From NCBI GenBank assembly GCA_033065855.1, contig JAVXUO010000653.1:62001-126000 (forward strand): a stretch of 64,000 bases of DNA, given 5' to 3'. The position numbers and the translations under genes are program-made. Positions 15,901 through 64,000 of the stretch are shown in pieces (the stretch's first letter is position 1; each line of letters starts with the position of its first letter). The notes beneath the pieces were generated by a model. It had not been told where the DNA came from. It saw only the letters and a program-made list of their open reading frames with translations, and searched no databases. Source of the stretch: Escallonia rubra (taxonomy: Eukaryota > Streptophyta > Magnoliopsida > Escalloniales > Escalloniaceae).

Positions 15901-16087
15901 GGCCCCTCCCCGTAATGTTCACCGCCAGCAGCAACCCCAATGTCTGCAATAATGCCTCCCACCGCGGCGTCTCCAACATATGCCGACACCAGAAGTCCCA
16001 CCCGAGCGACATCGCACCATGGCCCTTGAACACTACAGGTGCCCAGGGTATATCCTCCCGTTCCACCAACAACCCTGCCACTTTCTC
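13000..16087 (-). pseudogene. Antisense plant mobile domain (PMD) gene of the Tat element
   Basis: Read on minus from 16087, the frame carries PWAPVVFKGHG, LLLSRWSA, then a TAG and HTFVTEFGEIGPTLLDEMMLTGLPMHGE. This is the PMD pattern of Trp, Thr-x-Thr-Phe, Gly-Glu and Gly-Leu-Pro-x-x-Gly. PEDGISPRVIPLTIRMASG, the GRYQVVTYVDW segment (15362-15174) and AFAWAGIKRPD (15231-14761) follow through frameshifts. A Glu/Ser-rich region and a GT-AG intron at 14233-14145 come next, then an acidic segment (14144-13536) and a heptad-like coiled coil to about 13000. Extra antisense ORFs between pol and the 3' LTR, some with PMD, are known in the Tat clade. The role of PMD is unsettled. Its 5' end is cut by the copia fragment. 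Confidence 0.7.
14145..14233 (-). other. 89-bp GT-AG intron in the antisense PMD gene
   Basis: On minus, GAG/GTAAGCC at 14234/14233 is a consensus donor. TTCTTTTGACAG at the 14145 end is a good acceptor with a T-rich tract before it. The intron is AT-rich between GC-rich exons, and the frame is open on both sides. Such an intron implies the antisense transcript is processed as its own mRNA. Confidence 0.65.
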
Positions 16088-16509
16088 ATGGAGTGGTTTG
16101 TTAATACAAGCCAAGGTGAAGATTGTCGATATATGTCTTGTATTTATGTCCCACATCGGTTACTCAAAGAAGGTTGCAACTTGGCCCTTAGTATATAAGA
16201 CATCTTGTCCCACATTGCTTGGAGAGAGAAGATCATTGCTTTCTCCAAGTATAAGTAAGGTGTCTTGTATTGTGTTTAAGGCCAAGAGAGAAAATTCCTT
16301 CTCTGAGTAGGAAAGAGAGGATAGTCTTTCTTTGGGTAGGCAAAGAAAGAAGAGTCATTCTTTGAGTAGGAAAACAGTTGAGAGATATACGTGAGGGAGC
16401 GTTGTAAATCTGACTTGTGCAAAGTGGATTTGAGTTCTCTCATATTTCATGTGTTTTCTTATTTGATTATCATGTTCTATACATATCTATCTAAAGCGAT
16501 TTTGTAACA
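16088..16509 (+). mobile_element. 3' fragment of a copia element: internal tail plus LTR
   Basis: From ATGGAGTGGTTTG at 16088 the sequence matches the last bases of the copia element at 38264-43206, through its polypurine-like GCCAAGGTGAAGAT. A related LTR then runs 16124-16509 (TGTCGATATATG to TTTGTAACA). The whole coding part is missing. No target duplication is evident, as expected for a truncated piece. It cuts the 5' end of the antisense PMD gene. Confidence 0.85.
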
Positions 16510-17690
16510 TAATGCAAGTTGATAAAAAAGCTTCAAGTTCTAAGAGACGGCGGACTATCTCCTTGTACAAGGTCCATGCCAAAATATCTAGGAGAGATCC
16601 TTCTGTCTGGCTTGGTGTGCTGCCATACTGAGTTTAGGGAGAGGAGTCAAGTCTTGTAGGCCTCAAAAGTGTGGAAAAACTGGGCATTCCCAGTCCCACG
16701 CAATTGGTAATAACTTTTGACCTGCCTCTTGCTTTAACTCATAATATCTTTATGTGTATGTATCCTTTGTTCGTTGTGGATCTGTTCTTAATGGAGTGCA
16801 ATGGAAAGCAAAACCATTATTTCTGAGAAATGAAGAAAAGAGCTTCAGAGGTTAATTTCCTATTCTTTGAACTCATGGATATTCGGGCGCTAGGTGTGCT
16901 TTGAAGAGGGTATTCACTTGGCTAGTGTTGGGTACTGAAATGCAATATATTTCTGCGGATAGCTAGTGTTGGATACTGAAATGCAATATATTTTGCCCAC
17001 GATTAGATTTTACTACTCCTTCCTTATCACTAAACGAAAGCATTCACATTGGCACAAAACACAAACTTATATAGAACGCTAGAAATTGTTTAGTTGATAT
17101 GAAGCTATCTTGATTGTGGTACTAGCTGTAGCCAAAAGAGGATTGTTGGGTACATTAATCATCATTCCTATAATGACCAACTAAATCTTCTATAAATCGA
17201 CACCGATAACCTGTTTGGTTATCCCCACCTTGTGCGGGTCTTGCCGTCGCCAGTTTCACACACACGCACGCAGAGACCTTCCTCTCTCCCAAGATATGAA
17301 CACAAGCAAACGCAAATGAAGCTGTTGGGTTCATGAAAAAAGAAAGAGTTAATGAGTGGACAGAGAAAAGTGGTTAGGGAGAGAGAGAAAGTAAAAAAAA
17401 AAAAAAAAGACGAGGGCTTAACTGGAAAAACAACACCAAAAACATTCGGATTATTTCATTTCGAGACAGTCAAAAAAAGAAATGTGATAAATATCTCATA
17501 TATAGTTTAGTCTACTTATTCCTAGTTCTTTTACTTCTCCTCAACTCAACTATTCTTTCTAAAATAAATATTGAGCTCCTGATCATTGACGTTCTGAATA
17601 CTCATAATCTTCATCAGGTGAACTTTTGCTCACAACTTGACAACCTTTTGGATTATATCTGTGTTATTAGTTAGCTTATCTTTCATAATC
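16510..17690. other. Non-coding stretch, nothing assignable
   Basis: No ORF of note. A short direct repeat (GCTAGTGTTGG...TACTGAAATGCAATATATT) occurs at about 16921-16953 and again at 16962-16993. A poly-A run lies at about 17393-17408. Confidence 0.4.
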
Positions 17691-26651: not shown

Positions 26652-26870
26652 CACTACAAGAAAATAGGCTTTTAGCGACGGGGAAATCCGTCGCTAAAAG
26701 CCAAAAATCCGTCGCTAAAAGAATTAGCGACGGATTCACCGTCGCTAAAAATCCCTCGTATAAAAGCCCGTCACTAATAGTTTAGCGACGGAATTTTTAA
26801 ATCCGTCGCTAAATATGTGATTTTTACCGACGGATTTAAAAATTCCGTCGCTAAACTATTAGTGACGGGC
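26652..26870 (+). mobile_element. 5' end of a CACTA element with a 43-bp perfect inverted repeat
   Basis: CACTACAAGAAAATA at 26652 is a canonical CACTA terminus, followed by TTTTAGCGACGG and CCGTCGCTAAAA motifs. 26766-26808 and 26828-26870 are perfect reverse complements over 43 bases with a 19-base loop, built from the same motif. The bases before the terminus are TCA. The matching 3' end is uncertain: the terminus at 51461 is followed by AAA, not TCA. Confidence 0.8.
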
Positions 26871-27810
26871 TTGGACCAGAAAATGCCGTCATAGTGGTGC
26901 AGATCATTGTCTGCAACTTGGACCAGAAAATGGTTGGCACGAACCAGACACTTAGTTCCGACCTTCCTGAACCCCGGCCTAAGCGGAGGCCTTATCGCCT
27001 TAGAAGAACTCGATCTTCAGTCATCTTCATCTGACACTGGAGCATCGGAAACAGATCCAAGTTCGAAGCTCATGTTCCAGTATACTTGTGCTTCATTGTT
27101 GTTGCCATCTTCATGTGCATCACGTGCCATACGACGTAAGTTATGCTACTTTGACGAACTCTCATTCTATTATTTTCTTCACGTATTCGATGCAGTGCCC
27201 TTTCAAGCTCCATGTGTGTAATTCAAGGCATGTTGATTGCCTTTTGTCAAGGTATGGGTATATTCATGCGCCGTGAATCACCTACTAAGACCTCATATTC
27301 ATCCGATAAGACCATTCTGCACGTAATGTATTAACATAGCTTGATGAGTAACGCAAACTTGGACGCAAAGAATAGTGAAATTCATCTTCGCCCGCCCAGT
27401 AACGACCCATTGCTTCAAAAATATCTCGTGGAGTATATGACATTTCCAGAGTTGTTATGAAATTGGGAGTATATCACTATATGCCCTTTGCCCTTCGTGC
27501 AATGCATGTACTTATATATATACTTTGAAACGGGACCACTTTATGAGATGCTACAGTTCAACTTTTGAGAAGTGACAAGCCTCTGCAATAGACTAGAGAC
27601 TTGTCTTGTCTATGTGTAGACTTGTCAACTTTATGACACGGGCATGCTATTGTCTCCAACTACCAATTAAGCAGAGTGTCAGTGTCCAGAGACTTGTCTT
27701 GTCACCAGAGATAGGCAGGCTATTGTGTAGCTATCACACCAATATATTGTGTATGTGGGCTTATTTATATATGTTAGCCATGCTCATCGCATTAGATGTA
27801 CCTAAGTTAG
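26871..27810. other. Interior of the CACTA element or flanking DNA, uncertain
   Basis: A 104-codon plus ORF (26907-27221), Ser/Leu-rich, has no recognised domain. ACGAC/GTAAGTTATG near 27133 resembles a splice donor. GACCAGAAAATG is duplicated at 26874-26885 and 26921-26932. Nothing here can be assigned a function. Confidence 0.3.

Positions 27811-28240: not shown

Positions 28241-28283
<43 letters not shown>
28241..28283. repeat. (AT)n microsatellite
   Basis: More than 40 bases of pure AT alternation lie at the left border of the palindrome-flanked element. A similar tract lies at its right border (34276-34322). Confidence 0.95.
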
Positions 28284-28288
<5 letters not shown>

Positions 28289-28854
28289 TCCTACTGCATG
28301 TTAGGATTTCATTCCAACTGGCACTTATCCACATGTCATTCTAATTAGCGAATCCCGTCTTTTGATCAGCATGTAAAATGTTGAGAATTTATGTTTCTAT
28401 CTAAAATGTTGGGAATTTTGGTCCTATCTATGTCTGCGATACTATATAGCGGACAGTCCCGCAGAAGGAAGAGTCTCCAACACTTAGTTTTTTTTTTGTC
28501 ATATCTATGTCCGCTATATAGTATAGTGGACAGCCAAACAGAAAGTCAGTCTCCAACACTTAGTTTTTTTTCGTCCTGTTGGGCTGTCCGCTATATAGTA
28601 TAGCGGTCAGTCTCCAACACTTAGTTTTTTTTCGTCCTGTTGGGCTGTCCGCTATATAGTATAGCGGACAGCGAAATAGAAAGTCAGTCTCCAACACTTA
28701 GTTTTTTTTCGTCCTATTTATGTCTGCAATACTATATAGCGGACAGTCCCGCAGAAGGAAGAGTCTCCAACACTTAGTTTTTTTTTTTGGTCCTATCTAT
28801 GTCCGCTATATAGTATAGCGGACAGCCAAACAGAAAGTCAGTTTCCAACACTTA

Positions 28855-29538
28855 GGGTTCGTTTGACAAAATTTTTTTTTTGGTTTTCAGTTTTTAAAGA
28901 GCAGTTTTTTAAAGAGCAGCTTAATTTTTTTTTTTATAAAAACAAATGGGTGTTTGGTAAACCCTTTTTTTTTAGTTTTTTTTTTTTGTGTTTTGTTAAC
29001 CCTTTTTATTTTGTTTTTTTTTTTTTGGTGGTTTGCGGTGGCGGTGGTGGGGTGCAGCGGTGGTGGCCGGCGGCCGGAGGTGGCTGCCGGCAGCGGTGGT
29101 CGCCGGCGGTCGGAGGTGGCTGCCGGCAGTCTTCGGCGGTGGCTGCCGGCAGTCGCTAGCGGTGGTCGCCGGCGGCCGGAGGTGGCCGCCGGCGGCCGGA
29201 GGGGCCGCCGGCGGCCGGAGGTGGCTGCCGGCAGTCTCCAGGTGGTGGCCGGCGGCCGGAGGTGGCTGCCGGCAGTCTCCGGCGGTGGTCGCCGGCGGCC
29301 GGCGGTGGTCGCCTGAGGTGGCTGCCGGCGGTGGGAGGGTGGTGGTGGTGGTCTAAGAAAAAAAAACCAAAAGTGAAAAAAAAAACCAGTTTCTGGAGTT
29401 TTTTTTTTACTCTTTTTTACTCTTGAGTTTAAAAACTGGTTTTTAAACTGAAAAAAAAATGGTTACCAAACGCTCCTTTTTTTTTCAGTTTTTAAAAACT
29501 GAAAAAAAAAGAGGAAATTTTTTTTGTCAAACCTAGCC
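28855..29538. mobile_element. PIF/Harbinger-like MITE, 684 bp, TTA duplication
   Basis: Ends read GGGTTCGTTTGACAAAA and, reverse-complemented, GGCTAGGTTTGACAAAA. TTA flanks both sides (28852-28854 and 29539-29541). The host array gives an empty-site reference: other units read CACTTAGTTTTTTTT without interruption, so the insertion point and duplication are certain. Inside the T-rich/A-rich arms lies a 300-base GC-rich minisatellite of GGTGGCTGCCGGC and GGCGGCCGGAGG units (29035-29345), which makes Gly/Ala/Arg-rich spurious ORFs. There is no transposase. Confidence 0.85.
29035..29345. repeat. GC-rich minisatellite inside the MITE
   Basis: Units of 25-35 bases of GGTGGCTGCCGGCAGTC and GGCCGGCGGCCGGAGG repeat about ten times. 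Composition contrasts sharply with the T-rich and A-rich arms around it. Confidence 0.85.
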
Positions 29539-29739
29539 TTAGTTTTTTTTGGTCCTATTGGGATGTCCGCTATATAGTATAGCGGATAGCCCAACAGAAA
29601 GTCAGTCTTGAACACTTAGTTTTTTTTTCGTCCTATCTATGTCCGAGATACTATATAGTGGACAGTCCCGCAGAAGGAAGAGTCTCCAACACTTAGTTTT
29701 TTTCGGTCCTATCTATGTCCACTATATAGTATAGCGGAC

Positions 29740-29938
29740 ATCCCAACAGAAACACAGTCTCCAAAACACTTGGTTTTTACACTTTGTTTTCCCCTGGTCA
29801 AAGCAAATCACACAGAACAAATCAAACACTCAAATCAACAAGACAACGATATCAGTCAATCAAATCAATCGCATTCAACACCAATCACATCTCAGTCAAC
29901 ACAAATAAAATCATTAGAATCGCAAACATTGTCAATTG
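29740..29938. other. 3' flank of the PMD-protease gene
   Basis: No coding content. The plus strand is rich in AAATCA and CAAATC words. It would contain the 3' untranslated region of the minus-strand gene. Confidence 0.4.
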
Positions 29939-32900
29939 TCAATTGGGGCCCTCAGCCCCTGCGGGATCCCCCTCATTACACGGATTTACAATAAATCTAA
30001 TAAGTCTAGGCCGGCCATTGATAATTTGCCAAGCCATCCTATACCTAAAGCAGTCTATGCATTCTTGGCTCCAGACGGTATTCTTGAGGCTCTCAGACCG
30101 ACATATGTAATCCATGTACATGCAGACGAAGACGCCGCAGTCCGAGGAATTAAGTTGCTTGGGCCTACTCCTCTTCAATCGGAAAACAAGCTTCGGCCTG
30201 GGCGGTGCCCTCTCTCGACGCTTACCATTGACCATGACAACAAATAGATTCTGCGAGAAACATAATAAGCATTAAACATTAAACATTAAACATAGAAAAC
30301 ATAATAAGATTAATCAGTTCTACAATATGCAAGTTACAATAAGAAGTAAATAGGATCTTACCATGGCATCCAACTGGCCTAAGCCTCGGTACATTTCAAT
30401 CACACCAATCGCGGAGGTATCATCGTAGAGACTGTCGAGGACTGATACGGTCTTCGTTACCGGTTCATAGCAAACCAAGTACCAGTGGGCATTCACTATA
30501 AATGGGATTAGAAACACGTCCACCACACTTGCGCTCGCTGGACTATCCCGAGCAAGATATGCTTGTAGGTTAGCGGACGGCCTCCACTGGGGACCCTTTC
30601 TCGCCTTCCTTGATTTATCCCATTCGTTATACTCTTGTACTAGGATGCCATGAAAAAAGCATCGCAGATAAAAATGTGCGGACCGTAGTTAGGCTGCTCC
30701 CGACCCCTTTGCCTCAGAATTTTCACGTAGTGCGAGATGACAAAGTTGTCTAACAAATTCTCGGCGCCAGCGAGGACAGTTCTCTCCACGAGGCATTGTA
30801 ATCCAAGCCCTACGGGTGATCCACGTCATACGACGCTCCGCTGGGGGGGCCCCCGCTAAAATAACAGGCTCGGATTAGCTCATGTTTATGCGGCTTGAGG
30901 GGCCTGGCTGGATGCCCTTTCGGATATTGCCCTTGGGGGTCGACCGGTTGCTCTTGCCCTCCGTCGGGGGGCAAGAGCAATGGAAGAAATTGGCCTCCAA
31001 CTCCTGGTTCGGCCGACTGATAATCGCCTACGGGGGCCCCGGCCCGCTGATATTGCTCGCCGGCCATTTCTTCCACCGGCTGATATTGCCCTTCGGGGGC
31101 GCCAAGTGGTCCCGCCCACGGGACAATGGGTAGTGCCTCGTTGAAACCGTAAGGCCAGTCTTGCGTGACTTGACTCTGAGAGAGGGGTTGGGGTTCCGGG
31201 AACAAATTGAAGGTCGGGCCGCTGTAATCGGCCCACGACGCTTGAGCCTGTCCCATCCCCACTATAGAGGGACCACCAACTCCCTGGCTCACCCCTGAAG
31301 CCTGTCCGGAGGGATCACCATATCCCTAGCTGACGCCCGTATAACCCATTCCCGGGCTGTCAACCAAAGACTATCCCGATGCTTGGTGCACAAAATTCCC
31401 GCAGCCTAAAGCCAGTGCAGCAGCCTGTTGGCGAAGATCTTCGCCCATTGCGCTCACCAGATCCTTCCGCTCACTCAACTTCTGGAAGAATGCAAGCGAG
31501 GCATTAACCTACATCCAAAGAGATAACAAATAGGCAACTACACCAATCAAAATTTTATATTCAACAAATTCAAGACAAGTAAGACTAGTTGGGCAACTTA
31601 CGAGATTGTATGCCATACGCTCGTCGATCTGACTCCTAGGCGCATACCTCTCACCGTGTTCAAAGTTCACTGGGGCTACTCTTCTCCGCGTGATGCGGTA
31701 GTACCACTCATCGTACTGTTCGATGCCGATAACGGGGTCCAGCTCCAAGACGATGGCCGCCAGTGTGTTCTGCCAAGAAGTCCAAAGCTCTAGTTCGGCC
31801 GCGCACAATTCTTGCGCATTGGCCTTGCCAAATCGCCCGACATCCGGTGGGTCCTGTTAACCCTCATGTCTGGGGCACCGGCTGGCAATCCCTGCTCCAA
31901 CTCAAAATGGCACATTGCTCGGTCTGGCAGCTGCCACTCTGCGACCTCGAAGTGGATGAGAGGTGTGCGCTGTAACCCGAAGAGCGTGAAGATGAACGAC
32001 TCTTCGACCCGTCGCGCCAAACGTATGTACGGTGCCCAACGCATTTGGCCAGGAGATAGACCGTCGAACTCCCCTCGATAGTACGTGATGTTGTGATGGG
32101 GATCGACTCTCCTGCGGTAGTGGCTATTCTTCCGGCTGTGCTCCCAAGCACGCAACCAAGGCCACACTCTATCTGTTCTATCCCTACGCATTAGTGCCCC
32201 GGGAGCAAGGTGTTCATAAGACCACACCTGAGAACATGGGCAAATTATATTTATATCGTCAATTCAACAAAAGCAAAAACAAAAACAAAAAAACAATAAC
32301 GAAGACAGGATTTATATGATATACCTGCAATAGCGAGAGACATGCACATATGGCTTTGGAGTCAGGCCTCGTCGCCTTGTGCAATGCTCAGTAAAAATAC
32401 GAAAGAATCGCTGCACCCCATGCATAATCTCCAACCTCAGCCAGGTTACCCAACAATGGTAAATATCTCACGCTGACCGTGTTCTTCGACGTCGTTGGGA
32501 ATAATATTGCCCCCATCACCCACCAGAGGAAGGCTTGTGTGTACAGCACAAGGTCACGGCCCGTATAGTTTTCCGGCAAAACCCCGTAGGTATCTACCAA
32601 CCACTTCAACTTGATACCACCAGTGCTAAATTGATCCTGGGGTATCGAAGTTAAGAAGTCCCTAGTGGTTCTCTTATTCGTTGCTTCTGACGGAGGAGCA
32701 ATTACCGGCCGCCCCGTCACCGGCAACCCTAAGATGAACCCTACATCTTCTAGGGTAATTGCCATCTCTCCGAGCGGGAAGTGAAACGTATTCGTTTCAC
32801 TTCTCCACCTCTCAACAAGGGCACCTATCAAGGCCCGGTCAAGCTGTTGACATATCTGCCCATGCGTGAAAATCCCAAACCCAATTCCATGCAGTATCCT

Positions 32901-33143
32901 CTTCTGGGCGGTGTTCAGTTTCCACGATGTGAACTCGCGAGATACTTCTACAATGTTGAGAAGTTCTCTTTCCTACTAATTAATAAGATAATTTAAGCAA
33001 AACAAACGGTATATACAACGTTCGTAAGAATAAAAAAGTTGATAAATAATGTATCTTACTCCACCATCCCATATGAGCGTACTGATATGGTTGGCTTGGT
33101 CGTATAACACGGATGGGTCTTCTGGTCTAGGGTTGAATTCCAT
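29939..33143 (-). pseudogene. Plant mobile domain-Ulp1 (C48) protease fusion gene
   Basis: Minus-strand gene with probable exons 33143-33060, 32972-32325, 32227-31602, 31508-30790, about 30526-30362 and 30250-29939, joined by GT-AG introns. Start: ATG at 33143, opening with MEFNPRPEDPSVL. Exon 2 carries the PMD: RSETNTFHFPLGEMAITLED, GLPVTGRP, LYTQAFLWWVMG and LPLLGNLAEVGDYAWGAA. Exon 3 opens with VWSYEHL. A Pro/Gly/Gln-rich linker follows. The C-terminal domain is a C48 protease with His in NAHWYLVC (about 30487), Asp in VLDSLYDD and Cys in NSSDCGVF (30139-30137). Disruptions: TGA at 32390-32388, a frameshift near 31840, stops in the linker. There is no transposase. Confidence 0.75.
30251..30361 (-). 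other. Intron between the His/Asp and Cys exons of the C48 domain
   Basis: On minus, GATGCCATG/GTAAGATCC (donor at 30361) and TTTCTCGCAG (acceptor at 30251) bound a 111-bp AT-rich intron. It contains a triple TTTAATGTTTAATG repeat and separates the catalytic His/Asp from Cys. Confidence 0.7.
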
Positions 33144-33760
33144 TTTTTTGCAACTGAAATTATGAAAAAACTTTCTTAGTTTGGATTTTACGTTTTTGGA
33201 TTTTGATAATCGCTCGCAAAAATACGACGCTAGCACATGCATAATACATAGGCCGCAAGCACATGCATAATGCATACAATGTTAGCATATGTACTCATAT
33301 GTATAATAGATATATATATACATATACGGAATCGGATTTTACAAACGCTAGCACATGAACAAAAACATACATATATAAAACGCAATATTCATCACAACTA
33401 TTGGACAGAAACGACGCTAGCACATGCATAATACATATAACGCAAGCACATGCAACAAAAATGCATACAATGTTAGCATATGTATAATAGATATATATAC
33501 ATATACGGAATCGGATTTTACAAACGCTTGCACATGAACAAAAACATACATATATAAAACGCAATATTCATCACAACTATCGATTACAAACAAAAAAAAG
33601 TATAGATTTTGTGAACTTACGTGATCGATTTAGGGTATTAAAGGTGTTCTTAAGACGGAATTGCTGCGCCGATCTGCTTGCCAACGCCGCTGGAAATTTT
33701 TGTGAGTAGAAAGAGTGGAGAAAAGTGCCGTCGTTACTGTTTTTTGAACCTATATTGACC
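33144..33760. other. 5' flank of the PMD-protease gene, with a duplicated block
   Basis: A block of about 190 bases (CGACGCTAGCACATGCATAATACATA through ATATATATACATATACGGAATCGG) occurs twice, at about 33227-33340 and 33410-33515. The downstream part (AACAAAAACATACATATATAAAACGC) is also repeated, at about 33357 and 33538. TATATAAAACG (33551-33561) is in the wrong orientation for the minus-strand gene. A donor-like CACGTAAGTT on minus lies near 33618-33624. Confidence 0.5.
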
Positions 33761-34170
33761 GTCCGCTATACAGTAGCGCGGATGGCTATTACCTCCGCCG
33801 TACAGTATCGCGGACGGCTATTGAGTCAGTAGTTACTGTATATTGCCCGTCCGCTATACAGTATCGCGAATGGCTATTACGTCCTCGATACCGTATCGCG
33901 GACGGCTATTACTGTATATTGACCGTCCGCTATATAGTATCGCGGACACTGTTGACGTGACAGGTAAGGACAAGATAGCCGTCAGTGCCGAAAAGGAGCG
34001 ACGGGACAGGACCTGACAGGTGTCAGCGCGTCCCGTCCGCTACACTGTATAGCGAACGCCTTTTTGCTGTCTCCCGTCAGGACTTTAATGATGTCCGCTA
34101 TACAGTGTAGCGGACAGGCGCGGAGGGGCAAAAAGGTAAAAAAGTTCGTCCGCGGAACTGTATGGCGGAC
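33761..34170. repeat. Right palindrome array: eight copies of the 23-nt near-palindrome
   Basis: Copies start at 33761, 33793, 33849, 33881, 33925, 34035, 34093 and 34148. The prevalent form here is GTCCGCTATACAGTATCG with a closing GCGGAC, a variant of the left-array motif. Spacer text (GGCTATTA, TACTGTATATTG) differs from that of the left array, so only the palindrome is shared. This is upstream (5') of the PMD-protease gene. Confidence 0.9.
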
Positions 34171-34282
34171 GACTGACAGTTTTCGAAAAAGGCACGATCT
34201 GGGCCGTCCATCTTTCAGGATGGACGGTCAAATCGCGCTTGCAACTTAACTCTATTTGCTAGCGCGAGCAATGGATCAGCTC

Positions 34283-34325
<43 letters not shown>

Positions 34326-34756
34326 CATGAGTTTCCGGAGCATTATGGCAAAGTGGATAGGAGTCAAATCCAAAACAGTGTCTCTTAAAGAGTTCAATAC
34401 GAAGGGCTACTCGCTGATGAAGAAATTGCCATAAAAAGAACTTGATTTTTTAGGAGCGGGCAATTTCTATAGTCGACACCGAAGAGCAGGAGACACAAAC
34501 CCTCAAGTGTGACTCAGTCTAGATAATCAACCTAATGTAAATTTATAAGTTTTCAAAACTGAGAAGTAATTATTCGTGCTGAAATGCCAAAAGGGTTCAT
34601 TCGTTAGGTGTTGTGGAGAGAGGCGAAGGCGAAAGATGAAAGTTGCTAAGTCTAGTGGGAAGATGGTATGAACTCTTTCTACATTCCAATCCCGGGTATC
34701 TTGAGAGATTAATTAAAAAACACGCAAGTGTGAAGTAGACTCAGTTCTAAACTGGA
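34171..34756. other. Right border of the palindrome element and LINE junction
   Basis: A perfect hairpin CCGTCCATC/GATGGACGG lies at about 34203-34226. An (AT)n tract follows at 34276-34322, then a 36-codon open tail (34326-34434) of unknown origin. Imperfect direct repeats of CAAGTGTGA..CTCAGT lie near 34503-34521 and 34726-34745, just before the LINE sequence. Confidence 0.5.
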
Positions 34757-37619
34757 TCAGGGCAAAGGAGGAATCGAAGGCAACCACCCATCCATCCATA
34801 CAGAAATAGATATGCCATCCCCAATTCTCCATTGCAAGCCTTGCTTCAGGACCCTTTGCCCAATTAAAATACTCTTCAAAACCCATGAACTACTACTATT
34901 ATTCTTTAGCTGAAGAAATGCCTGTTGTTTAAAGTAACGACCTTTAAGGACCTTGGCAATCAAACTCTGTGGTAATGACTAAATTTTCCAGGCTTGTTTG
35001 GATAATAAAGCTTTATTAAAGGATCGAAATTCATGAAAACCTAAACCACCAAGATGTTTAGGTAAACATAAAACAGTCCAGGATATCGAATGAATAGAAT
35101 TTTGAGAAGCTTCCCCAGACCACCAAAATCTCGCCAAGATTTGATCCAGTTGCTTACAAACATAAATAGGAAATTTCTAAACCGACATATAGCGGCATGT
35201 AGTGACTTAGGAGGGAAAAAAAACAAATTGAATTAAAGTACCTCTTCCCATTTTATTCAGAAACAAACCTAACCAGCGTGCACATCTATTCTCAACCTGC
35301 TGAACTAGCCTAGCAAACAACAACCTTTTGTTACCAGAGACATCTAATTGAATTCCCGGATATTTACCAATATTAGGCATTGAAACAAAGGCAAGGGTAG
35401 ATTCAATCTGTGTCTGAACTTCAAGAGAAGCATTAGGACTGATAGTAAGCCCCGATTTATGCCAGTTAATTTGTTGGCCAGAGAGGTTATAGTAATGATC
35501 TAAGATCGATTTGAGCTCAAAAATAGAATTGAGCGGATTTTGTTTAGGGAGGCTGAGGAAGAGAAAGGTATCATCAGCATACATGGGTGAGATATTGGTG
35601 GCGAAAGTTTGCCCACTCTGTTTCCGACAATCAAGCCCGAATTCTCATAGCGGATAAGGGAAGCCGAAAGCACTTCTGAACAAAGTATAAACAACAGGGG
35701 TGAAAGTGAATCACCTTGATGAATGCCACATTTAGGTGAGAAGTGAGGTGTAAGAGCACCATTAACCAATAATGATTATGACACTACGGAGGCACACAAC
35801 ATAATAAGTCTGATCCAATTTGTTGGGAAATTCATTGGAAGTAAAACTTGTTCTAAAATATCCCAATGCAATCTGTCAAAAGCCTTGCTCATATCCAGTT
35901 TAAAAGCAACCAAAATTCCTTTCCCTTTTTTCCATGTAGAGACACAATGAGTAAGTTCCTGTGCAAGGATGACATCGTCTGAAAGACTACGACCCGAAAT
36001 GAAAGCATTTTGATAGGGTGAGATTAGGGAATCCATAACAGGAGACAACTTGGCTGCAAGAACCTTAACAATAATTTTGTAGATCACGTTACAAAGACTA
36101 GTAGGCCGAAAATCAGAGGCAGACTCGGGAAAAGAAATTTTGGGTATAAGAGTCAAGAAGGTATTATTCACTTCATTCAAAAGATGCCCAATATAAAGAA
36201 AAGATAAAACCCCTCTAATGACAATGGGACCCATAAAGTCCCAACATTTGTAGAAAACAATAGCAGGAAAACCATATGGACCAGGAGATTTAAACATTTT
36301 CAAATGAAAAATTGCACTTTTAATTTCACTCTCATTGAAAGGCTGATTTAAAATGAGAAGCTGATTAGAGCAAAGAGCGTTTAAGCTCAAAGAAAAATGA
36401 GGAGGAAACATATTAGGAGTCTCGAGAGAAAACAAGCCTTGAAGATGATCAACTCAAATTTTTTCGAACGCTCATCTCATCGGCCTTAAGAGCACCATTG
36501 CGATCTTTTAAATAAAGGATATGATTATGGCTGCGACGAATGATCGTAGAGCTGTGAAAAAATTTGGTATTTTTGTCACCGAAATCTAACCAGTCGCTTT
36601 TAGATCGTTGAGCCCAAAAAAGTTCCTCACGTTGAAGAAGAAAAGCAAGTTTTTGTTTAAGTTAAAAAAGACGAGGAAACTGAGATCGTAAAATAGGACC
36701 TTGAGAGAAAACAGATGACAGGAGAGGATACGACAAGGTAAATCACTAGTGTTTAAACGGTTCCATGAACAGAGTTTCTTCAAGACCGTACGAGAACAGT
36801 ACACGATTTGAAATAAAGGAAAACCCGAAGGAGGAAAGAGGCAGGCCATCTTCAAAATTTGAAGACAAGAAGGATGTTCCAGCCAGAAAGCTTCAAAACG
36901 ATGTGGCCTTGGAAATACTAGACGGTGTGAATTATTATCACATAAAATAGGGGCATGGTCTGAACGAACAATGGCAAGATTAATGGCTATGGCTTCAGGA
37001 TAACGGAGAATCCAATCTGGATTACCCATAACCCTATCATGTTTTTCAGGAACAAATCTAAGTTCAGGAGAACCCCGCATCCAAGTATACTGGGAGCCCT
37101 ACCTGCCAATATCCGACAATCCAAACTTTTCAAGAAAATATCGCAAACTCTGCGCCCTAGGAAAAATACCCGAATGTGGTCCAGTTTTTTCGTTGGAAGA
37201 CATAACTTGATTAACGTCCCCACATAAACAAATAGGGCTTGAGTATGGTTCTAAAATTTTCTGAATGTGGAGCCAAGTTTCACTACGACAATGTACCATA
37301 GGATGCCTGTAGATAAAACCATATAATTCAGTTATCCCATCACGACCATCAACTGAAATCAGTATAAAGTTTTTGTCAGGAAACTTGACACCAATAAAAA
37401 AAACTCTGAGACTCGCCAAGCCAAACACCCTCACTATACCCAGCGGGTCAATTCCAACAATTCCTTTAAACCCCGTATTCCAAAAAATATGAGCTACTTG
37501 GCTCGAAGATAATTTGGTTTCCATGAGGAAGATAATATCAGGCCTATGCAAACGCCAATAAAAACTCTAATAGTGGAGTGTTGACTCAAACCTCCACTGT
37601 TCCAGCTCAAAATTTTCAT
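34757..37619 (-). pseudogene. LINE ORF2: endonuclease and reverse transcriptase, broken
   Basis: On minus, ORF2 starts near 37619 with MKILSWNSGG, the usual plant L1 opening. The APE-type endonuclease covers about 37551-36960: FLMETKLSS, YGFIYRHP, CLCGDVNQ and the closing VRSDHAPIL. The RT covers 36435-35207: SPGPYGFPA, FLTLIPK, DFRPTSLCNVIYKII, KLDMSKAFDRLHWD, GIHQGDSLSPLLF and the catalytic MYADD box (about 35584-35570). Past the RT, RYFKQQAFLQ and SSWVLKSIL lead to DGWLP at about 34760, where the sequence ends abruptly without RNase H or poly(A). At least four frame breaks are present. Such an element would reverse-transcribe its RNA at a nicked target. Confidence 0.88.
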
Positions 37620-38263: not shown

Positions 38264-38620
38264 TGTTGATATATGTCTTGTATTTATGTCCTACATCGGT
38301 TACTCAAAGAAGGTTGCAACTTGGCCCTTAGTATATAAGACATCTTGTCCCACATTGCTTGGAGAGGGAAGATCACTGCTTTCTCCAAGTATAAGTAAGG
38401 TGTCTTGTATTGTGTTTAAAGGAAAGAGAGGATAGTCTTTCTTTGGGTAGGCAAAGAAAGAAGAGTCCTTCCTTGAGTAGGAAAACAGTTGAGAGATACA
38501 CGTGAGGGAGCGTTGTAAATCTGACTTGTGCAAAGTGGATTTGAGTTCTCTCATATTTCTTGTGTTTTCTTATTTGGTTATCGTGTTCTATACATATTTA
38601 TCTAGAGCGATTTCATAACA
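38264..38620 (+). repeat. 5' LTR of the copia element (357 bp)
   Basis: Ends TGTT and AACA. It carries one to two copies of a short GAGTCCTTC..GAGTAGG unit (about 38405-38485), fewer than the 3' LTR, which explains the 59-base length difference. AGTATATAAGAC at about 38331-38341 is a TATA-like box. Confidence 0.95.
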
Positions 38621-38622
38621 AG

Positions 38623-38635
38623 TGGTATCAAGAGC
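38623..38635 (+). other. Primer-binding site of the copia element
   Basis: TGGTATCAAGAGC matches the initiator-Met-tRNA complement TGGTATCAGAGC with one extra A, two bases after the LTR. Confidence 0.85.
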
Positions 38636-38686
38636 TTCCAAGTTTTTTTTTTTGGGCAAAATTGAAATCGATTTGAGAGGATAAAT

Positions 38687-41600
38687 ATGTCGAACAACAC
38701 GACCATGAAGTATGCCTGTGAACAATTCGATGGAAAGATGAATTTTGGCATATGGCAGAGCACGGTGAAGGATATCCTTGTGCAGCAAGGATTGCTCAAG
38801 CCTTTGCTGGGGAATAAGCCTGAGTCAATGGATCAGGACGATTGGGAGGAATTACAGGCTAAGGCTGTATCTACGATACGGTTGAATCTAGCCCCGAAGG
38901 TTAAGTACCAGGTTTTGACAGAGACTTCTCCAACGACTCTGTGGTAGAAATTGGAGAAGATATATATGTCAAAATCTTTGTCGAATCGGTTATATCTGAA
39001 GAAGATCTGTACCAGTTACGGATGGATGAAGGTTCAGATCTGGGTGACCATATATCAGAATTTAATCAGTTGGTGTCCCAATTATCAAGTATAGATGTTA
39101 AACTCGAGGAGGAAGATCAGGCGATCTTGTTGTTATCTTCGCTTCCAAAATCATATGAGACCTTGAAGACTACATTGCTTATTGGGAAGGAGACATTGCT
39201 TGTTGATGATGTTATGTCAGCTCTTATGGACTCGAGCAGAGTTAATGGGACGAGTTCAAGCAATCAAGGTGACGGTCTGGTGGTAAGGTCTGAAAATAAG
39301 AATGGTCATGGAAGAGGCAGAGGTCGGTCTAGAAGCAGAAATTCAGGACATGGAAATGACAGGTCTAAGTCTCGTGGAAAGCAGAATAAGTCCAGTATTG
39401 AATGCTGGTATTGTAAAGAGATTGGTCATATCGCAAGGAAGTGTCCAGAAAGGAAGGACAAGAAGAACGGAAAGAAACATGTGAACAATGCTAATGTTGC
39501 TGAAGAAGATGACAAAAGCAGCGACGGTGATCTCTACTTGGTTTCCTCGGTTGAGCAGCAAGAAGGTAATCTCTTATCAATTAGAGACAACAGTTTTTGT
39601 ACGGAATGGTTTCTTGACTCTGCATGTTCGTTTCATATGTGCCCACATAAGGAATGGTTTGATTGTCTTACTCCATGTAACGGTGGTACTGTGTTAATGG
39701 GTAATGACGCTGTTTGTGAAGTCATGGGGATAGGTACCGTTAAAATTAAAATGTTTGATGGGATTGTGAGAACCCTAGGTGATGTAAGGTACATACCTAA
39801 CTTAAAGAAGAATTTGATTTTCTTGGGCACACTCGATTCTATAAATTGCAGTATATCTATAAAAGGTGGAGTCATGAAAGTTAGCAAAGGTGCCATGGTG
39901 ATAATGAAAGGTCAAAAAATTGGAAATTTGTATAAACTGATAGGGAAGACAGTTATTGGTGGAGCTTTAGTATCAACTCATGCAGGTTCTAGCAATGATA
40001 ACTCTGAGTTATGGCATAAACGGCTTGGACACTTGAGCGAGGGAGGTATGCTGGAACTTCACAAACGCAAGTTGTTGCAGGGAGTGAAATCATGCAAGCT
40101 GGACTTCTGCAAATTTTGTGTGTTTGGGAAGCAGAAACGAGTTAGTTTCAAAGCTACTTCTCATACTAGTAAAGGAGTTTTGGACTATGTGCATTCGGAT
40201 GTTTGGGGACCAATCAGGCATATCTCAAATGGGGGAGCTCGTTACTTTGTTACGTTTATAGATGATTTCTCAAGAAAGGTATGGGTGTACTTTATGAAGC
40301 ACAAGTCTGAAGTTTTCAACGTATTTAAGCAATGGAAGGCTAGAGTTAAAAATCAGACGGGTAAGAAGCTTAATTACTTCAGATCAGATAATGGCATGGA
40401 ATACAAGGTGAGAAGTTTCTGCAGTTCTGCAAGGATAAGGGTATCATCAGACATTTTTCAGTGAAGAGGACTCCAGAGCAGAATGGAGTTGCCGAAAGGA
40501 TGAACAGAACCTTGCTAGAGCGAGCTAGATGCATGAGGTTGAATGCAGATTTGCCTAAGAGTTTCTGGGCTGAAGCTGTTAACACAGCTTGTTATTTGAT
40601 CAACCGTTCTCCATCATCTGCCATTAATCACCAAGTTCCCGAGGAGGTATGGTCCGGTAAACAAGTTAATTTTTCTGCAATGAGAATTTTTGGTTGTCCT
40701 GCGTATGTTCACCTTCAGAATGAAGAACGATCCAAACTTGATCCTAAGTCAAAAGAATGTATATTCCTTGGGTATGAGGAAGGAGTAAAAGGATACAGGT
40801 TATGGGATCCAGTGGCCAAGAAAAGGGTGATTAGTAGAGATGTGGTATTTAATGAAGCACAGATGTTGAATACGAATGCAACTTCTAGCGAGAGGCAGGG
40901 TCACATAGTGGAGATAGAGTTGCATGAGCAGAGGACAAAATCGGCTGATGAGTCTAAAGATGGATCTACAGATGAGTAGTCTTTAAAGAATCCAGAGGAG
41001 CATCCTAGTGATTCTTGGAATCTAGTCAGAGATAGAGAACCACGTACCAAGAAACCAACTCAGAGGTATGGTTTTGAGGACTTGGTCTTATTTGCACTAA
41101 TCGTTGGAAGTGGAGATCCTACCAGTTACAACAAGGCTGTCAAGGCAGAGGATGGTAACTTGTGGTTGACAGCAATGCATGAGGAGATGGAATCTCTACG
41201 GAAGAATCAGACTTGGGAATTAGTTAAACTTCCAAAGGGTGTGAAGGCTATTGGATGCAAGTGGATTTACAAGAAAAAGGAAGATCAGAAGTACAAGGCA
41301 AGACTGGTTGCAAAAGGGTATTCTCAAAAGGAGGGAATTGATTATAGTGAGATCTTTTCGCCAGTGGTGAAGCACACTTCTATCAGATTTATATTGTCCA
41401 TTGTAGCAGCGAAGAGAATATGGAGTTGGAGCAGCTTGATGTGAAGACAGCTTTCCTTCATGGTGATTTGGAGGAGAGGATCTACATGCAGCAACCCGAG
41501 GGATTTATTGAACCTGGGAAGAAGGACTATGTGTGCAAGCTGAAAAAGTCCTTATACGGTTTGAAGCAGTCTCCTCGGCAATGGTATAAGTGATTCGACA

Positions 41601-42667
41601 CATTCATGGTAACTCATGGTTACTCTCGCCGTGAGTATGATTGTTGTGTGTATTATCGAGTCCTTAATGATGGTTCACTGTTGTTGCTTACATTATATGT
41701 GGATGATATGTTGATTGCTATGAAGAGTAAGTCTCATATTCTACACTTGAAGAAATTGTTGAGTAAGGAGTTTGATATGAAGGATCTTGGTTCTGCCAAA
41801 AAGATCCTTGGTTTGGAGATTCATAGAGATCGAAAGGCAGGAAAGTTATGGGTAACTCAGAAAAGTTATGTTGAAAAGGTACTGGAGAGGTTTAGTATGC
41901 TCAATGTTAAACCGGTTAGTACACCATTGGGAGCTCATTTTCAGTTATCCTCACAACTTTGTCCTAGTACAAAAGAAGATGTTGAGTATATGTCTCGAGT
42001 ACCGTACGCAAATGCGGTTGGTTGTCTTATGTATGCCATGGTATGTACCAGACCTGATATCTCACATGCAGTTAGTATGGTCAGTAGGTATATGGGAAAT
42101 CCAGGAAAGAAGCATTGGGATGCAGTGAAGTGGATCTTCCGTTACCTAGCAGGTTCGATCAACTTTGGCGTCATGTTTGATCGTGATGGGGCAAAAGGTG
42201 AGGTTTCTGGCTTTGTGGATTCTGATTATGCGAGGGACTTGGATTCCAGGAGGTCCATGACTGGATATATTTTTACATTCTATGGAGGGCCGATATGTTG
42301 GAAATCAGTGTTACAGTCTACTACAGCATTGTCAACTACGGAGGCAGAGTACATGGCATTGACAGAGGCAGCTAAGGAGGCATTATGGTTAAAGGGACTG
42401 GTAGAGGAGCTTGGCTTCAAGCAGCGTGGTGTTTTGTTACAGTGTGACAGTCAGAGTGCATTGGATTTGGCAAAGAATCAGGTTTTCCATGCAAGGACCA
42501 AGCATATTGATGTACGTTATCATAGGGTCCGGGAATGGATTAATTCTAAACAAATTGTCGTGCACAAGGTTCACACTAATGACAACGCTGCTGATATGCT
42601 CATGAAGACAGTCACGACAGAGAAGTTCAAGCATTGCTTGAGTTTGATTCATCTTCTTTCTTGTTGA
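38687..42667 (+). pseudogene. Copia gag-pol polyprotein, broken
   Basis: Start ATG at 38687. Gag: KMNFGIWQS and LNLAPKVKYQVL, then TAG (38945) and a frameshift into 38941-40464, with zinc knuckle CWYCKEIGHIARKC. Protease: WFLDSACSFHMC, with DSA where DSG/DTG is usual. Integrase: LWHKRLGHLSEGG and the CKFC zinc site; catalytic Asp in HSDVWGPI, Asp in FRSDNGMEY; after a frameshift near 40410, Glu in PEQNGVAERMN (40473 on). [34 protein letters not shown]; a frameshift near 41415; [15 protein letters not shown] then TGA; catalytic LYVDDM near 41700. RNase H: FVDSDYARD, STTEAEYMAL, CDSQSALDL. It ends at 42667. It cannot give a full polyprotein. Confidence 0.93.
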
Positions 42668-42777
42668 GTTCAAGGTGGAGTGTATCCCTACCTTTAAAGG
42701 GGATGCAAGGTGGAGTACATGAAGAAGGTACTGAAGGCATATTACACTTTCCTTATGGAGTGGTTTGTTAATACAAG

Positions 42778-42790
42778 CCAAGGTGGAGAT
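42778..42790 (+). other. Polypurine tract of the copia element
   Basis: CCAAGGTGGAGAT lies directly before the 3' LTR and is also present before the LTR fragment at 16124. Confidence 0.7.
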
Positions 42791-43206
42791 TGTTGATATA
42801 TGTCTTGTATTTATGTCCTACATCGGTTACTCAAAGAAGGTTGCAACTTGGCCCTTAGTATATAAGACATCTTGTCCCACATTGCTTGGAGAGGGAAGAT
42901 CACTGCTTTCTCCAAGTATAAGTAAGGTGTCTTGTATTGTGTTTAAGGGCAAGAGAGGAGAGTCCTTCTTTGAGTAGGCCAAGATAGAAGAGTCCTTCTC
43001 TGAGTAGGAAAGAGAGGATAGTCTTTCTTTGGGTAGGCAAAGAAAGAAGAGTCCTTCCTTGAGTAGGAAAACAGTTGAGAGATACACGTGAGGGAGCGTT
43101 GTAAATCTAACTTGTGCAAAGTGGATTTGAGTTCTCTCATATTTCTTGTGTTTTCTTATTTGGTTATCGTGTTCTATACATATTTATCTAGACCGATTTC
43201 GTAACA
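42791..43206 (+). repeat. 3' LTR of the copia element (416 bp)
   Basis: Nearly identical to the 5' LTR, but with extra copies of a 25-30 base unit (GAGAGTCCTTCTTTGAGTAGG and AAGAGTCCTTCTCTGAGTAGG) at about 42955-43010. It is followed by the AAAGG duplication (43207-43211). Confidence 0.95.
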
Positions 43207-43211
43207 AAAGG

Positions 43212-44110: not shown

Positions 44111-46624
44111 TTTTTTTTTTTTTTTGGGTGAAAGTCAAACTTTTATTACCAAATCAAATGTTCTACAACAAAAAAACTTTCATAGCATACATGTCCTATA
44201 TTTCAATATAGCTATAGCTGTCTTAAGACAACAGCATTCTCTCATCAATTTCCCAATTGGAGCAAAGCCTTTTGTTTACATTGTGCCCCTTTATTTGCTT
44301 CCAGCTTCTCAGACACCGGCAGATCCATTGTTGAATCATCATGATCAGCTCCTCCTTTGTTTTTTGTTGCAGTTCAAATGTTCTCTTATTTCTTTCAAAC
44401 CATAGCATGTAAACTGTGACAGCCATCCCAAGCTTTCTAAGCCTTGCTTGAAAACTTTTTCCTCTGAATTTCTTAGTAGCATAACATAAGAACTGATTCA
44501 AAGACGCCCCTTGAAACTGTATCATTAGTTTCCTCAATACTACCTCCCATACTGTACTAGTGTAATTGCATCTCCAGAAGAGATGATCTTCATCTTCCCT
44601 GTGGTTTCCACAAAGAGGACATGAGTCATCCATGCTAGCAGTCCATTTCATCAATTTGTCTTTAGTTTTCAGTCGCCCCTTGCATAACATCCATAGTATA
44701 AATGCACACATAGGGATATGACCATTGAACCAAACTAATTTCCACCAAAGCACCAGTGCACTTTTAGTTCTTAAGAGCTGCCATGTTGAGTTTATTGAGA
44801 ATATGGCATTCTTATTCCCTTTCCACATGATTTTAACTTCTCTAGTGGTTTGAGGCAGGCTGATGCATCTAATATCTTCAATCCAACTGCTAAGTGCATG
44901 AGATCTTGCTAGAGGTAATTTCCATTGCCCATCTTCTATGATAGCACTCACCCTGTTATCCTTTCTTAGTCCAGAATCTTAGATGATTCTATGACCATAT
45001 TGTGCAATTAGATTTCGTTGGGGCATCCAATTATCATACCAAAGCCAGGTATTTTTAACATTTCCAATATCATACCACACCAGCTGCTGCATTTTCTTTT
45101 TGAACTTGATTATCTTTCTCCATATCCAGGTCATTGTCACAGGGAGTTGAAAAGTCCACAGATTCCTATTCTTGATGATGTAGGAGTGACACCATTTCAC
45201 CCGTAGCGAGTCCTTTTTGTGTTGTAGGTCCCAGATATGCTTGGATAGAGCTGCTCTATTCCACTCAGCCAGTCTTTTGATCCCCAGCCCCCCTTCTTGT
45301 TTAGGGACACACATATCCTTCCAAGCCACTTTGGCTTTAGAGCATTTTATGTCTTTCCCATGCCAGATGAAAGCTCTAATTTTTGCTTCAAGTTGTTTAA
45401 TCATTTTCTATGGGAGAATAAACATAGAACACCAATATACTTGCATGCTTATAAGCACAAATGTAGCAAGTTGGACTCTACCTGCATAAGATAGGCATTT
45501 AATGGTCCAACTATCAATTTTCCTTGTGAGTTTATCCAACAGTATTTGATAGTCTTTCACATGTAACTTAGTTGAAATGAAGGACACCCCCAAATAGGTG
45601 ATAGGAAGTTGAGCAGCTTTTACTCGAATAATCTGGGACAAAGCTTCCTTATCTTCTTCTTGTACCCCAGCCATAAACATAGAGCTTTTGTCCAAATTTG
45701 GTATAAGTCCAGATAGGGTACCAAACTCCAAAGCATTCTTGACGTAGGCCAGGGAAACTTGATCTGCAGCAGCCATGATGAACAAGTCATCTGCAAAACT
45801 GATGTGGTTAATTTGTAGTTCTTGATATTTGGGATGATAATTGAAACCAGGTTTAGCTGTGTAATCATCTAGTAGACCAGAAAAAGCCTCCATTACCAAT
45901 AAGAAGAGATAAGGTGATATGGGGTTTCCTTGCCTCAATCCCTTTGAGCTAGGAAAATATCCATCCATTGCTCCATTTAAGTTTATTGAGAATCTAGCTG
46001 TAGTTACACATTTCATTACCCATTGAATGTAGGATCTAGGAAACTCAAACACTTCCATAGTACATTGTAGGAAATCCCATCCAACTGAATCATAGGCCTT
46101 TTGAATGTCCACCTTCATGACACATCTAGGTTTACCACCTTTTTTGTGGTAATTTTTAACAATTTCTTTCATCAGCAGAACGTTGTCAGCTATGTGTCTC
46201 TCCCTCACAAAGGCTGATTGCCTTGTGTTAATGAGTTTAGGCATAATTTCCTTTATTTTTTTGCAAAGGATATTTGAAATCACTTTATAGACCACATGCA
46301 GCAAGAAATAGGTCTAAAATCCTTCATAGTTCTAGGACATGGAACCTTTGGCACCAATGTCAATCTAGTATTATTGAAAAAGTGAACCCCACTACCTGTG
46401 CTAAAGAATTCCTTCACTGCATTTTTTAGATCAGAACCAATCATATCCCAATTATCTTGGAAGAATTCAGCTGTATATCCATTTGGTCCTGGGGCTTTAT
46501 TAGTTTTTAATGAGAAGACTGCCTCCTTGATCTCCATCAGTGTAACTGGACCTGCTAACATAGCCTGATCTGAGTAGGTGAGGTTTTTCTTGATGACTTC
46601 TCTAAGCCTTCCCTTGGCCACCAA
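44111..46624 (-). pseudogene. Second LINE: RT and zf-RVT, 5'-truncated, with poly(A)
   Basis: A T run at 44111-44125 is the poly(A) tail on minus. Frames 46624-46280, 46304-45408, 45404-44979 and 44951-44223 give most of the RT: TNKAPGPNGYTAEFFQ, TLVPKVPCPRTMKDFRPIS, MKVDIQKAYDSVGWDFLQ, GLRQGNPISPYLF and the catalytic ISFADDLFI box (about 45800). AYITYLGVSF-type text and QEGGLGIKRLAEWN follow. The zinc-binding reverse transcriptase domain has CPLCGNHREDEDHLFWRC near 44620-44570. The endonuclease and ORF1 are missing. Few stops separate the frames, so decay is lighter than in the other LINE. It abuts TNP2 sequence at 46625. Confidence 0.9.
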
Positions 46625-58254: not shown

Positions 58255-59060
58255 TTGAGATTACTGACGGAGGATGTGACTCAATTGGATTGAATGTGTG
58301 ATTTATGTTAATTTTTATTGCATTGAGCATATGAGAATTGCGAATTGAGATTGTTGACGGATGATGGGACCTAATTGGATTGAGATACCTGTTAGTTAGC
58401 GCAGACACGGACACCACGTTTGATCGACGGTGTCCGACATTTAAAAAATGAATTAAAGTATGCCGATGTGTCTGGAGGTGCGTGTCCGGAGGGGTCGGAC
58501 ACGTGTCGGTATGTGTCGCACACGTGTCCGGAGGTGTCAGACACGTATCGGACACCATATCGACACCCTCTATGAGGTGTCGGAATTGAGGTTGTTGACG
58601 GAGGATGGGACCCAATTGGATTGAGATACCTGTTAGCTAGCGCAGACACGGACACCACGTCTGATCAACGGTGTCCGACATTTAAAAAACAATTTAACGT
58701 ATGCCGATGTGTCTGGAGGTGCGTGTCGATGGGGTGGGTGTCTGGGGGCGTCGGACACGTGTCGGTATGTGTCGGACACGTGTCCAGAGGTGTCAGACAC
58801 GTATCGGACACCATATCGACACCCTGTATGATGTGTCAGAATTGAGGTTGTTGACGGAGGATGGGACCCAATTGGATTGAGATACCTGTTAGCTAGCGCA
58901 GACACGGACACCACGTCTGATCGACGGTGTCCGACATTTAAAAAACAAATTAACGTATGCTGATGTGTCTGGAGGTGCGTGTCGGTGGGCGTCGGACACG
59001 TGTCCGGACACGTCCGGAGGCCTCGGACACGTGTCCAGAGGCGTCGGACACGTGTCCGAA
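58255..59060. repeat. Three tandem copies of about 256 bp with CACGTG palindromes
   Basis: Each copy has GGGACCCAATTGGATTGAGA, ACCTGTTAGCTAGCGCAGAC, GGTGTCCGACATTTAAAAAA and a cluster of GGACACGTGTC motifs. The copies begin near 58364, 58604 and 58860; the identical minus ORFs starting at 58658 and 58914 show the 256-base period. At least eight GACACGTGTC-type sites occur in total, each an exact or near palindrome with a G-box core. Confidence 0.85.
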
Positions 59061-63576: not shown

Positions 63577-63745
63577 CTTGTAATGTTGTAACATCACGGG
63601 AAAAATGTAGTAACATTTTAGAACTTGGTGTTTATTGATGTGTTTTTGCACATCCGTTCATATATATATATATATATATAGTGCCGATGATGATTTATGC
63701 CAAATTATTGTTTTTAACGTGTTAATGTCTTTGTAATTTATCTAT

Positions 63746-63959
63746 ATGAAGTCAGATATGGATAGGATACGGGCTATTCGTGGCCGGGCTGGACGCCGAG
63801 CTGCTTCCTCCCCGGTGGGTCCCACCTCGTCATTGTCTACTGATGACGAGGCACAGAGTGATCACGGACAGCAGATGGGGCCCCAGCCGTCGCCCCAGCC
63901 CGACGCAGATTCATCCTACACGCGCGTGCATTTTCCATCTTCCGTGGGTTCTACCTCAG
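63746..63959 (+). CDS. First exon of the second CACTA gene (ORF2), partial
   Basis: ATG 63746 opens a Ser/Pro/Gln/Asp-rich frame (MKSDMDRIRAIRGRAGRRAA, then PQPSPQPDADSS) that ends at CTCAG/GTATAG, a splice donor at 63959/63960. A related but decayed copy occurs at about 48985-49192 in the same relation to its TNP2 gene. In CACTA elements this gene encodes the accessory protein that binds subterminal motifs. The remainder lies outside the window. Confidence 0.6.
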
Positions 63960-64000
63960 GTATAGTTGATAACGGTGTTTAGTACATTTTCGCTAGCCTT

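Follow-up and report, generated by a model that had tools for sequence, protein, structure and literature searches.

A PMD–C48 gene between two clusters of a 23-nt palindrome in Escallonia rubra: a possible decayed DNA element with sites for its own protein

Results

Palindrome clusters on both sides of a PMD–C48 gene

We analysed a 64,000-nt stretch of the Escallonia rubra genome (GCA_033065855.1, contig JAVXUO010000653.1, positions 62,001 to 126,000 of the forward strand; hereafter the window, with positions counted from its first letter), in which a minus-strand gene for a plant mobile domain (PMD) and an Ulp1-like C48 protease domain lies between two clusters of a 23-nt near-palindrome (Table 1). 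All conclusions rest on this one locus. We scanned all 64,000 positions on both strands with the query GTCCGCTATAYAGTATAGCGGAC, allowing up to 7 mismatches, and obtained 17 sites in total, every one of which carries 0–4 mismatches on its better strand. The initial annotation had counted nine palindromes 3′ and eight 5′ of the gene, with about 4 kb free of them in between, and the full-window scan returned the same numbers: sites start at 28432, 28509, 28586, 28647, 28722, 28801, 29565, 29641, and 29717 in the left cluster and at 33761, 33793, 33849, 33881, 33925, 34035, 34093, and 34148 in the right cluster, and the 4,021 bp separating the clusters (29740–33760) contain no site at this threshold. 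Relative to the gene, the right cluster begins 617 nt before the candidate ATG and the left cluster ends 199 nt past the stop codon.

Five first-order Markov sequences served as control for the scan and yielded four sites altogether, at 6–7 mismatches and none below 6. The palindrome follows the dyad pattern GTCCGCTATA-N3-TATAGCGGAC. At up to one mismatch, the half-site GTCCGCTATA occurs 26 times in the window, in all 26 cases within the two clusters, where 2.14 occurrences are expected and the maximum over 100 shuffles is 8.

Table 1 Features of the locus (window positions)
Feature	Position	Strand	Source
(AT)22 microsatellite, proposed left edge	28241–28284	.	
Proposed element, 6,000 bp between (AT)n runs; inferred boundary	28285–34284	– (gene strand)	
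Left palindrome array, 9 copies in tandem units of 61–79 nt	28432–29739	.	palindrome scan, Tandem Repeats Finder (TRF)
Nested 684-bp PIF/Harbinger-like miniature inverted-repeat transposable element (MITE), ends GGGTTCGTTTGACAAA / TTTGTCAAACCTAGCC	28855–29538	.	
PMD–C48 gene; candidate ATG 33143, final coding piece ends 29942, TGA 29939–29941	29939–33143	–	
C48, Gln and Cys motif part (QLNSSDCG), E 1.3e-6	29942–30271	–	profile search
C48, His and Asp motif part, E 9.9e-4	30323–30688	–	profile search
PMD, second part (profile 180–302), E 1.9e-14	31793–32263	–	profile search
PMD, first part (profile 12–158 of 347), E 2.2e-41	32391–32972	–	profile search
Right palindrome array, 8 copies, spacing 32–110 nt	33761–34170	.	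palindrome scan
(AT)19 microsatellite, proposed right edge	34285–34322	.	

A PMD–C48 gene copy that is probably dead

Both domains first read from the frames of the minus-strand gene were recovered by profile search. The two PMD (PF10536) matches reach 142.6 and 54.1 bits, above the curated cut-off of 34.9. For C48 (PF02902), the His/Asp part scores 19.4 bits, just under the cut-off of 20.7, and matches the Ulp1-like SUMO protease in PDB 6dg4 weakly (E 0.053); the Gln/Cys part aligns with SENP1 and SENP2 at QLNSSDCG (E 1.3e-8 for SENP2). The His, Asp, Gln, and Cys motifs of C48 are present (HW, LDS, QLNSSDCG), and the product is a predicted protease. A six-frame scan of 29500–34284 gave two further weak matches, both below cut-off, to DUF7745 over the PMD (E 0.019) and to a YhfX-like model (E 0.086). 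Searched against the PDB, the first PMD part returned a single chance-level match (E 1.2); against viral contigs it gave five pattern matches, none of which was confirmed.

An in-frame TGA interrupts the PMD at 32388–32390, the frame appears to change around 31793–31856, and the linker contains additional stops, which probably make this a dead copy of the gene. The exon limits and the frame change were read manually. Just upstream of the gene, a unit of ~179 nt occurs twice (33224–33580, 89% matches). A second, more distant PMD fragment lies on the minus strand at 15323–15841 (E 3.4e-5, below cut-off), and the plus-strand frames near it look Ty3/Gypsy-like by eye.

Conservation confined to the 23-nt motif

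Comparison of left with right sites gives a mean identity of 0.81 across the 23 core columns, a figure inflated by the selection of sites for resemblance to the consensus, and of 0.25 and 0.26 in the two adjoining blocks of 30 columns. The spacers of the two sides are thus unrelated, as previously noted, and it is the 23-nt motif itself that has been retained or has spread. Copies of the left cluster have the consensus GTCCGCTATATAGTATAGCGGAC and those of the right cluster GTCCGCTATACAGTATCGCGGAC; core position 11 is T in the former and C in the latter (C in seven of eight right copies), and core positions 2, 4, 6, 9, 10, 13, and 14 are invariant in all 17 copies. Conservation limited to the motif in this way supports a predicted dyad protein-binding site.

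We considered two further readings of the dyad itself. In the first, each palindrome would form a hairpin of RNA or single-stranded DNA and act as a small-RNA source or replication structure. Each of the 17 copies does retain 7–10 of the 10 possible pairs, but only two copies pair fully, one or two pairs are broken in ten copies and three in the remaining five, and a single apparent two-sided change of the compensating type was found among the copies, at site 33881. Because most copies carry broken pairs and two-sided change is limited to this one case, a protein target made of two half-sites fits better than a stem, and the hairpin appears very improbable. In the second, a host transcription or chromatin factor would bind the dyads, which the element would exploit as promoter or insulator. 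The dyad form and the position of one cluster upstream of the gene would suit such a factor; the matching cluster downstream would not, and we know of no plant factor site that corresponds to the dyad, no motif library having been searched. We regard a host factor as improbable.

Different histories of the two clusters

The nine left sites form a tandem array (TRF periods 61–79). With the nested MITE deducted, its spacings are 77, 77, 61, 75, 79, 77, 76, and 76 nt; the core is inverted in three of the nine units, and flanks within the cluster are shared (identity 0.45–0.49). The MITE, which we assign to PIF/Harbinger on the form of terminal inverted repeat (TIR) and target-site duplication that we take to be typical of that group, is bordered by TTA at 28852–28854 and 29539–29541 and divides the cluster into six and three copies, and removal of 687 nt (684 plus TTA) restores the usual 77-nt spacing of the array. 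A six-frame Pfam scan of the left part gave weak matches, none of which was accepted (HemY_N, 0.024; DUF7915, 0.068; CTLH_Armc9, 0.19); nor did we accept as real a proline-rich model match in the GC-rich central part of the MITE (E 2.6e-5, below the model's own cut-off).

The right cluster contains one internal duplication. With the copies of this duplication set aside, the six remaining of eight sites have a core identity of 0.82 and a flank identity of 0.251, the latter indistinguishable from random element positions (0.252 ± 0.013). Tandem growth alone hardly accounts for a cluster whose flanks are at background while its cores are so alike, and its motif would have been maintained by selection or self-spreading. 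Judged from the sequence, the two clusters arose by different routes, and the right one is no simple minisatellite. An ordinary minisatellite, grown by slippage and unconnected to the gene, would explain the tandem structure and shared flanks of the left cluster and could draw on the internal duplication of the right one, but it is already hard to keep for the remaining right-hand sites, and it leaves aside that the same 23 nt, among unrelated neighbours, flank one gene and are absent from the rest of the 64 kb. We rate it about as improbable as a host factor.

The base changes also differ between the clusters. Left cores deviate from the left consensus 11 times, and five of these deviations are C-to-T or G-to-A changes at consensus CpG, compared with none of 19 in right cores; the observed/expected CpG ratio of the spacers is 0.55 on the left (28432–28857 only, 288 nt) and 1.01 on the right (226 nt). 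These small numbers are compatible with past methylation of the left cluster and perhaps reflect differing histories of the arrays. Helical phasing of the sites was considered and is not used as evidence, part of the right spacing stemming from the one internal duplication: right spacings give R = 0.78 at 11 nt (reached by 0.4% of random spacings) and R = 0.04 at 10.5 nt, and left spacings do not fit at 11 nt (33% of random spacings reach the value).

Edges and neighbours of the proposed unit

Perfect (AT)22 and (AT)19 runs sit 147 and 114 nt beyond the outermost palindromes. The window contains three AT runs of at least 12 copies, two of which are the proposed edges; when three runs are placed at random, both sides have one within 150 nt with a probability of 3.1e-5, the limit of 150 nt having been set after the result was seen. 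The (AT)n runs are likely the edges of the unit. Local alignment of the two ends did not find TIRs (score 11, shuffle mean 14.5), and among the 25 longest of 295 inverted pairs only the AT runs connect the two proposed edges. A target-site duplication of 8–11 bp is unreadable because both edges are (AT)n.

The initial annotation had proposed a mobile unit without its own transposase. As to the transposase, six-frame Pfam scans of 28285–29520 and 29500–34284 found no such domain; as to mobility, no TIRs were found, both edges are (AT)n, and a single copy was seen, and this part of the proposal stays conjectural. In the main rival to a role of the element's own protein, the palindromes would be subterminal sites for the transposase of an autonomous relative acting in trans, with the PMD–C48 gene as a passenger. 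Such a transposase would account equally well for the position and density of the sites, which are densely packed, in either orientation, close to each of the two proposed ends of a unit without a transposase domain, and it could operate alongside a role of the element's own product. It has to contend with the failure to find TIRs, with the lack of any further dyad site in the window that would mark an autonomous relative, and with a right cluster that covers the upstream region of the gene, which regulation explains equally. We consider this rival unlikely, though less so than any of the readings discussed above.

To the right, the unit adjoins a minus-strand long interspersed nuclear element (LINE) with an RVT_1 match (34323–37600), the 3′ part of which appears, by eye, to stop abruptly at (AT)19. 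A zf-RVT match was absent from 24.0–28.3 kb in six frames and from 16.4–24.1 kb on the minus strand.

Other features of the window

To the left of the unit, a weak Argonaute N-terminal match (PF16486, E 9.7e-4, 20 bits, cut-off 30.9) lies on the minus strand at 26864–26953; beside it is a 109-nt palindrome with 94% identity (26764–26872), and the locus is possibly a captured Argonaute fragment. Two stretches, 46619–49216 and 61282–63983, are 77% identical, and the second, going by its frames, presumably resembles the CACTA Tnp2 coding region. Period-21 repeats with the consensus CGTGTCCGGAGGTGTCGGACA occur around 58477–59057. A Copia-like element (type by eye) occupies 38264–43207, with terminal repeats at 38264–38621 and about 42791–43207, and a related stretch at 16079–16512 is perhaps a solo long terminal repeat.

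Comparison with known systems

We compared the locus with described plant elements; what we report of them, here and in the Discussion, is drawn from the accessible portions of the cited papers (the literature background also includes PMC10673657 and PMC6419827). In Arabidopsis, VANC21 binds YAGTATTAY, a motif tandemly repeated in the non-coding regions of VANDAL21, and silencing is lost (PMC5735166, PMC10398659). VANDAL21 and VANDAL6 resemble the present unit as non-TIR elements with a short tandem motif in non-coding DNA, in which the repeats of one array change together, and some VANC genes contain an Ulp1 domain (PMC5735166, PMC10398659, PMC13317346). A motif repeated in the non-coding DNA of the element, as in the VANDAL/VANC pairing, is found here. 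The differences are that VANC has DUF1985 and VANDAL a transposase, where we find a PMD and no transposase domain, and that the VANDAL motif measures 9 nt compared with a dyad of 23 nt. The first six letters of the VANC21 motif, YAGTAT, occur in 12 of 17 cores, which may be chance. Lacking DUF1985 and having a PMD instead, the unit is not a VANDAL, though it possibly works like one.

The (TA)n run at both edges is shared with Mutator-like elements (MULEs) that target TA microsatellites. Two other features by which MULEs are recognised, a mudrA/MULE transposase and long TIRs, were not found in the unit. Non-autonomous MULEs lack transposase by definition, and non-TIR MULEs may lack TIRs. Flanking TA microsatellites are the mark of MuTAnT and are common in SaTar, TAFT, and Micron (PMC4486113, PMC5907723; TAFT and Micron as described in those papers). 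MuTAnT (Medicago), SaTar (guayule, rice), TAFT (maize), and Micron (rice) all provide units between two (TA)n runs; AutoMuTAnT, for instance, comprises 4.9 kb between 59 and 27 TA repeats (PMC4486113). These elements differ in being mostly small and mostly TIR-defined, and their accessible descriptions mention neither a PMD/C48 gene nor a palindrome array.

Elements that carry one of the two domains are also known. In Arabidopsis, melon, grapevine, and rice, MULEs with an Ulp1 domain, KAONASHI (KI) among them, place C48/Ulp1 on a DNA element, in some cases without TIRs, but there the Ulp1 domain accompanies a transposase gene and the accessible text does not mention PMD (PMC2528002). PMDs occur on MULEs of grasses and Amborella and on Ty3/Gypsy elements (PMD-A) (PMC5418596); in these, the PMD either forms a fusion with a transposase or sits in Gypsy, whereas here PMD is followed by C48 and no transposase domain is found. 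In the EPSPS cassette of Amaranthus palmeri, six PMD genes occur together with an Ulp1 gene, and clusters of palindromic direct repeats lie on both sides of EPSPS, but the cassette is far larger, its PMD and Ulp1 genes are listed as separate, and the likeness is one of description (PMC5240378).

The ends of the unit, taken as the (AT)n runs, did not show CACTA-type termini, and Pfam scans of the unit found no Tnp2 domain. In other respects the unit recalls CACTA elements, in which short motifs are clustered near both ends. CACTA elements can also carry Ulp1 (PMC2528002).

We found no description of a PMD–C48 element with palindrome arrays among the titles and abstract openings of the listed matches in the open-licence PMC literature, which is no proof of absence from print. 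The half-site strings, searched in full-text literature, led to listed titles unrelated to plant transposons. The palindrome patterns had no matches in viral and prokaryotic contig collections, a result uninformative for plants.

Discussion

Our best explanation, which we hold tentatively, is a decayed, transposase-less, most likely Mutator-derived element whose palindromes are sites for its own PMD–C48 protein, in the manner of VANC. A class II (DNA) element between two (AT)n microsatellites would encode the PMD–C48 (Ulp1-like) protein, which, most likely as a dimer, would read the palindromes in both non-coding ends; binding would protect the element and its own promoter from silencing, or regulate them in some other way, and the element would be mobilised by a transposase provided in trans. 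From the arrangement described above we infer that (i) the 6 kb form one unit that has moved in the past and is kin to Mutator, and (ii) its own product binds the sites and counteracts silencing.

The initial annotation had left two roles side by side, a dimer-binding site used at both ends and a regulatory site read by the element's own product. Conservation of the motif alone supports the idea of a dyad site, and we prefer the second role, because VANC proteins and the tandem motifs of VANDAL elements provide a functional precedent for it (PMC5735166, PMC10398659).

Several results weigh against this explanation. No TIR was found in the unit, while TA-microsatellite MULEs are mostly TIR-defined; Pfam scans found neither DUF1985 nor a transposase domain in it, and it is no VANDAL proper. 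The two flanks do not appear colinear: no zf-RVT remainder of the LINE on the right was found on the left in the regions scanned, so that the data do not establish that the unit inserted cleanly into a single microsatellite. Within the 64-kb window there is one copy only, and neither a second locus nor an empty site was seen. Clear helical phasing in site spacing is not seen in the two clusters together. For the first PMD part, structure prediction reached a mean pLDDT (predicted local distance difference test) of 36.6 and thus gives DNA binding no structural support, and direct DNA contact by PMD proteins is left open in the PMD literature (PMC7156037, PMC9899485).

That literature nevertheless provides the setting in which an own-product role would have to be placed. 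PMD proteins have a role in silencing and influence genes that carry a promoter motif, direct contact being unproven (PMC5418596, PMC7156037, PMC9899485); whether MAIN/MAIL1 complexes contact chromatin at all is described as an unanswered question (PMC9899485, PMC7156037); and an anti-silencing use of transposon-borne PMDs has been offered as speculation (PMC5418596). In tea, PMD genes are reported as small-RNA sources, which by analogy fits host silencing of PMD elements. A broader proposal is that PMD–C48 proteins constitute a second sequence-specific anti-silencing family, independent of VANC, each member reading a palindrome that its own element multiplies in its two non-coding ends; we regard this as doubtful at present, at about the level of the trans-acting transposase.

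If this broader proposal is true, the locus would, for the first time, yield a candidate DNA ligand for a plant mobile domain carried by a transposon. The dyad arrays around the PMD gene provide a concrete motif for in vitro testing. Should the PMD protein bind, sequence-specific anti-silencing by transposons would extend past VANDAL and would suggest a general design, in which an element encodes its own factor and multiplies the motif that this factor reads.

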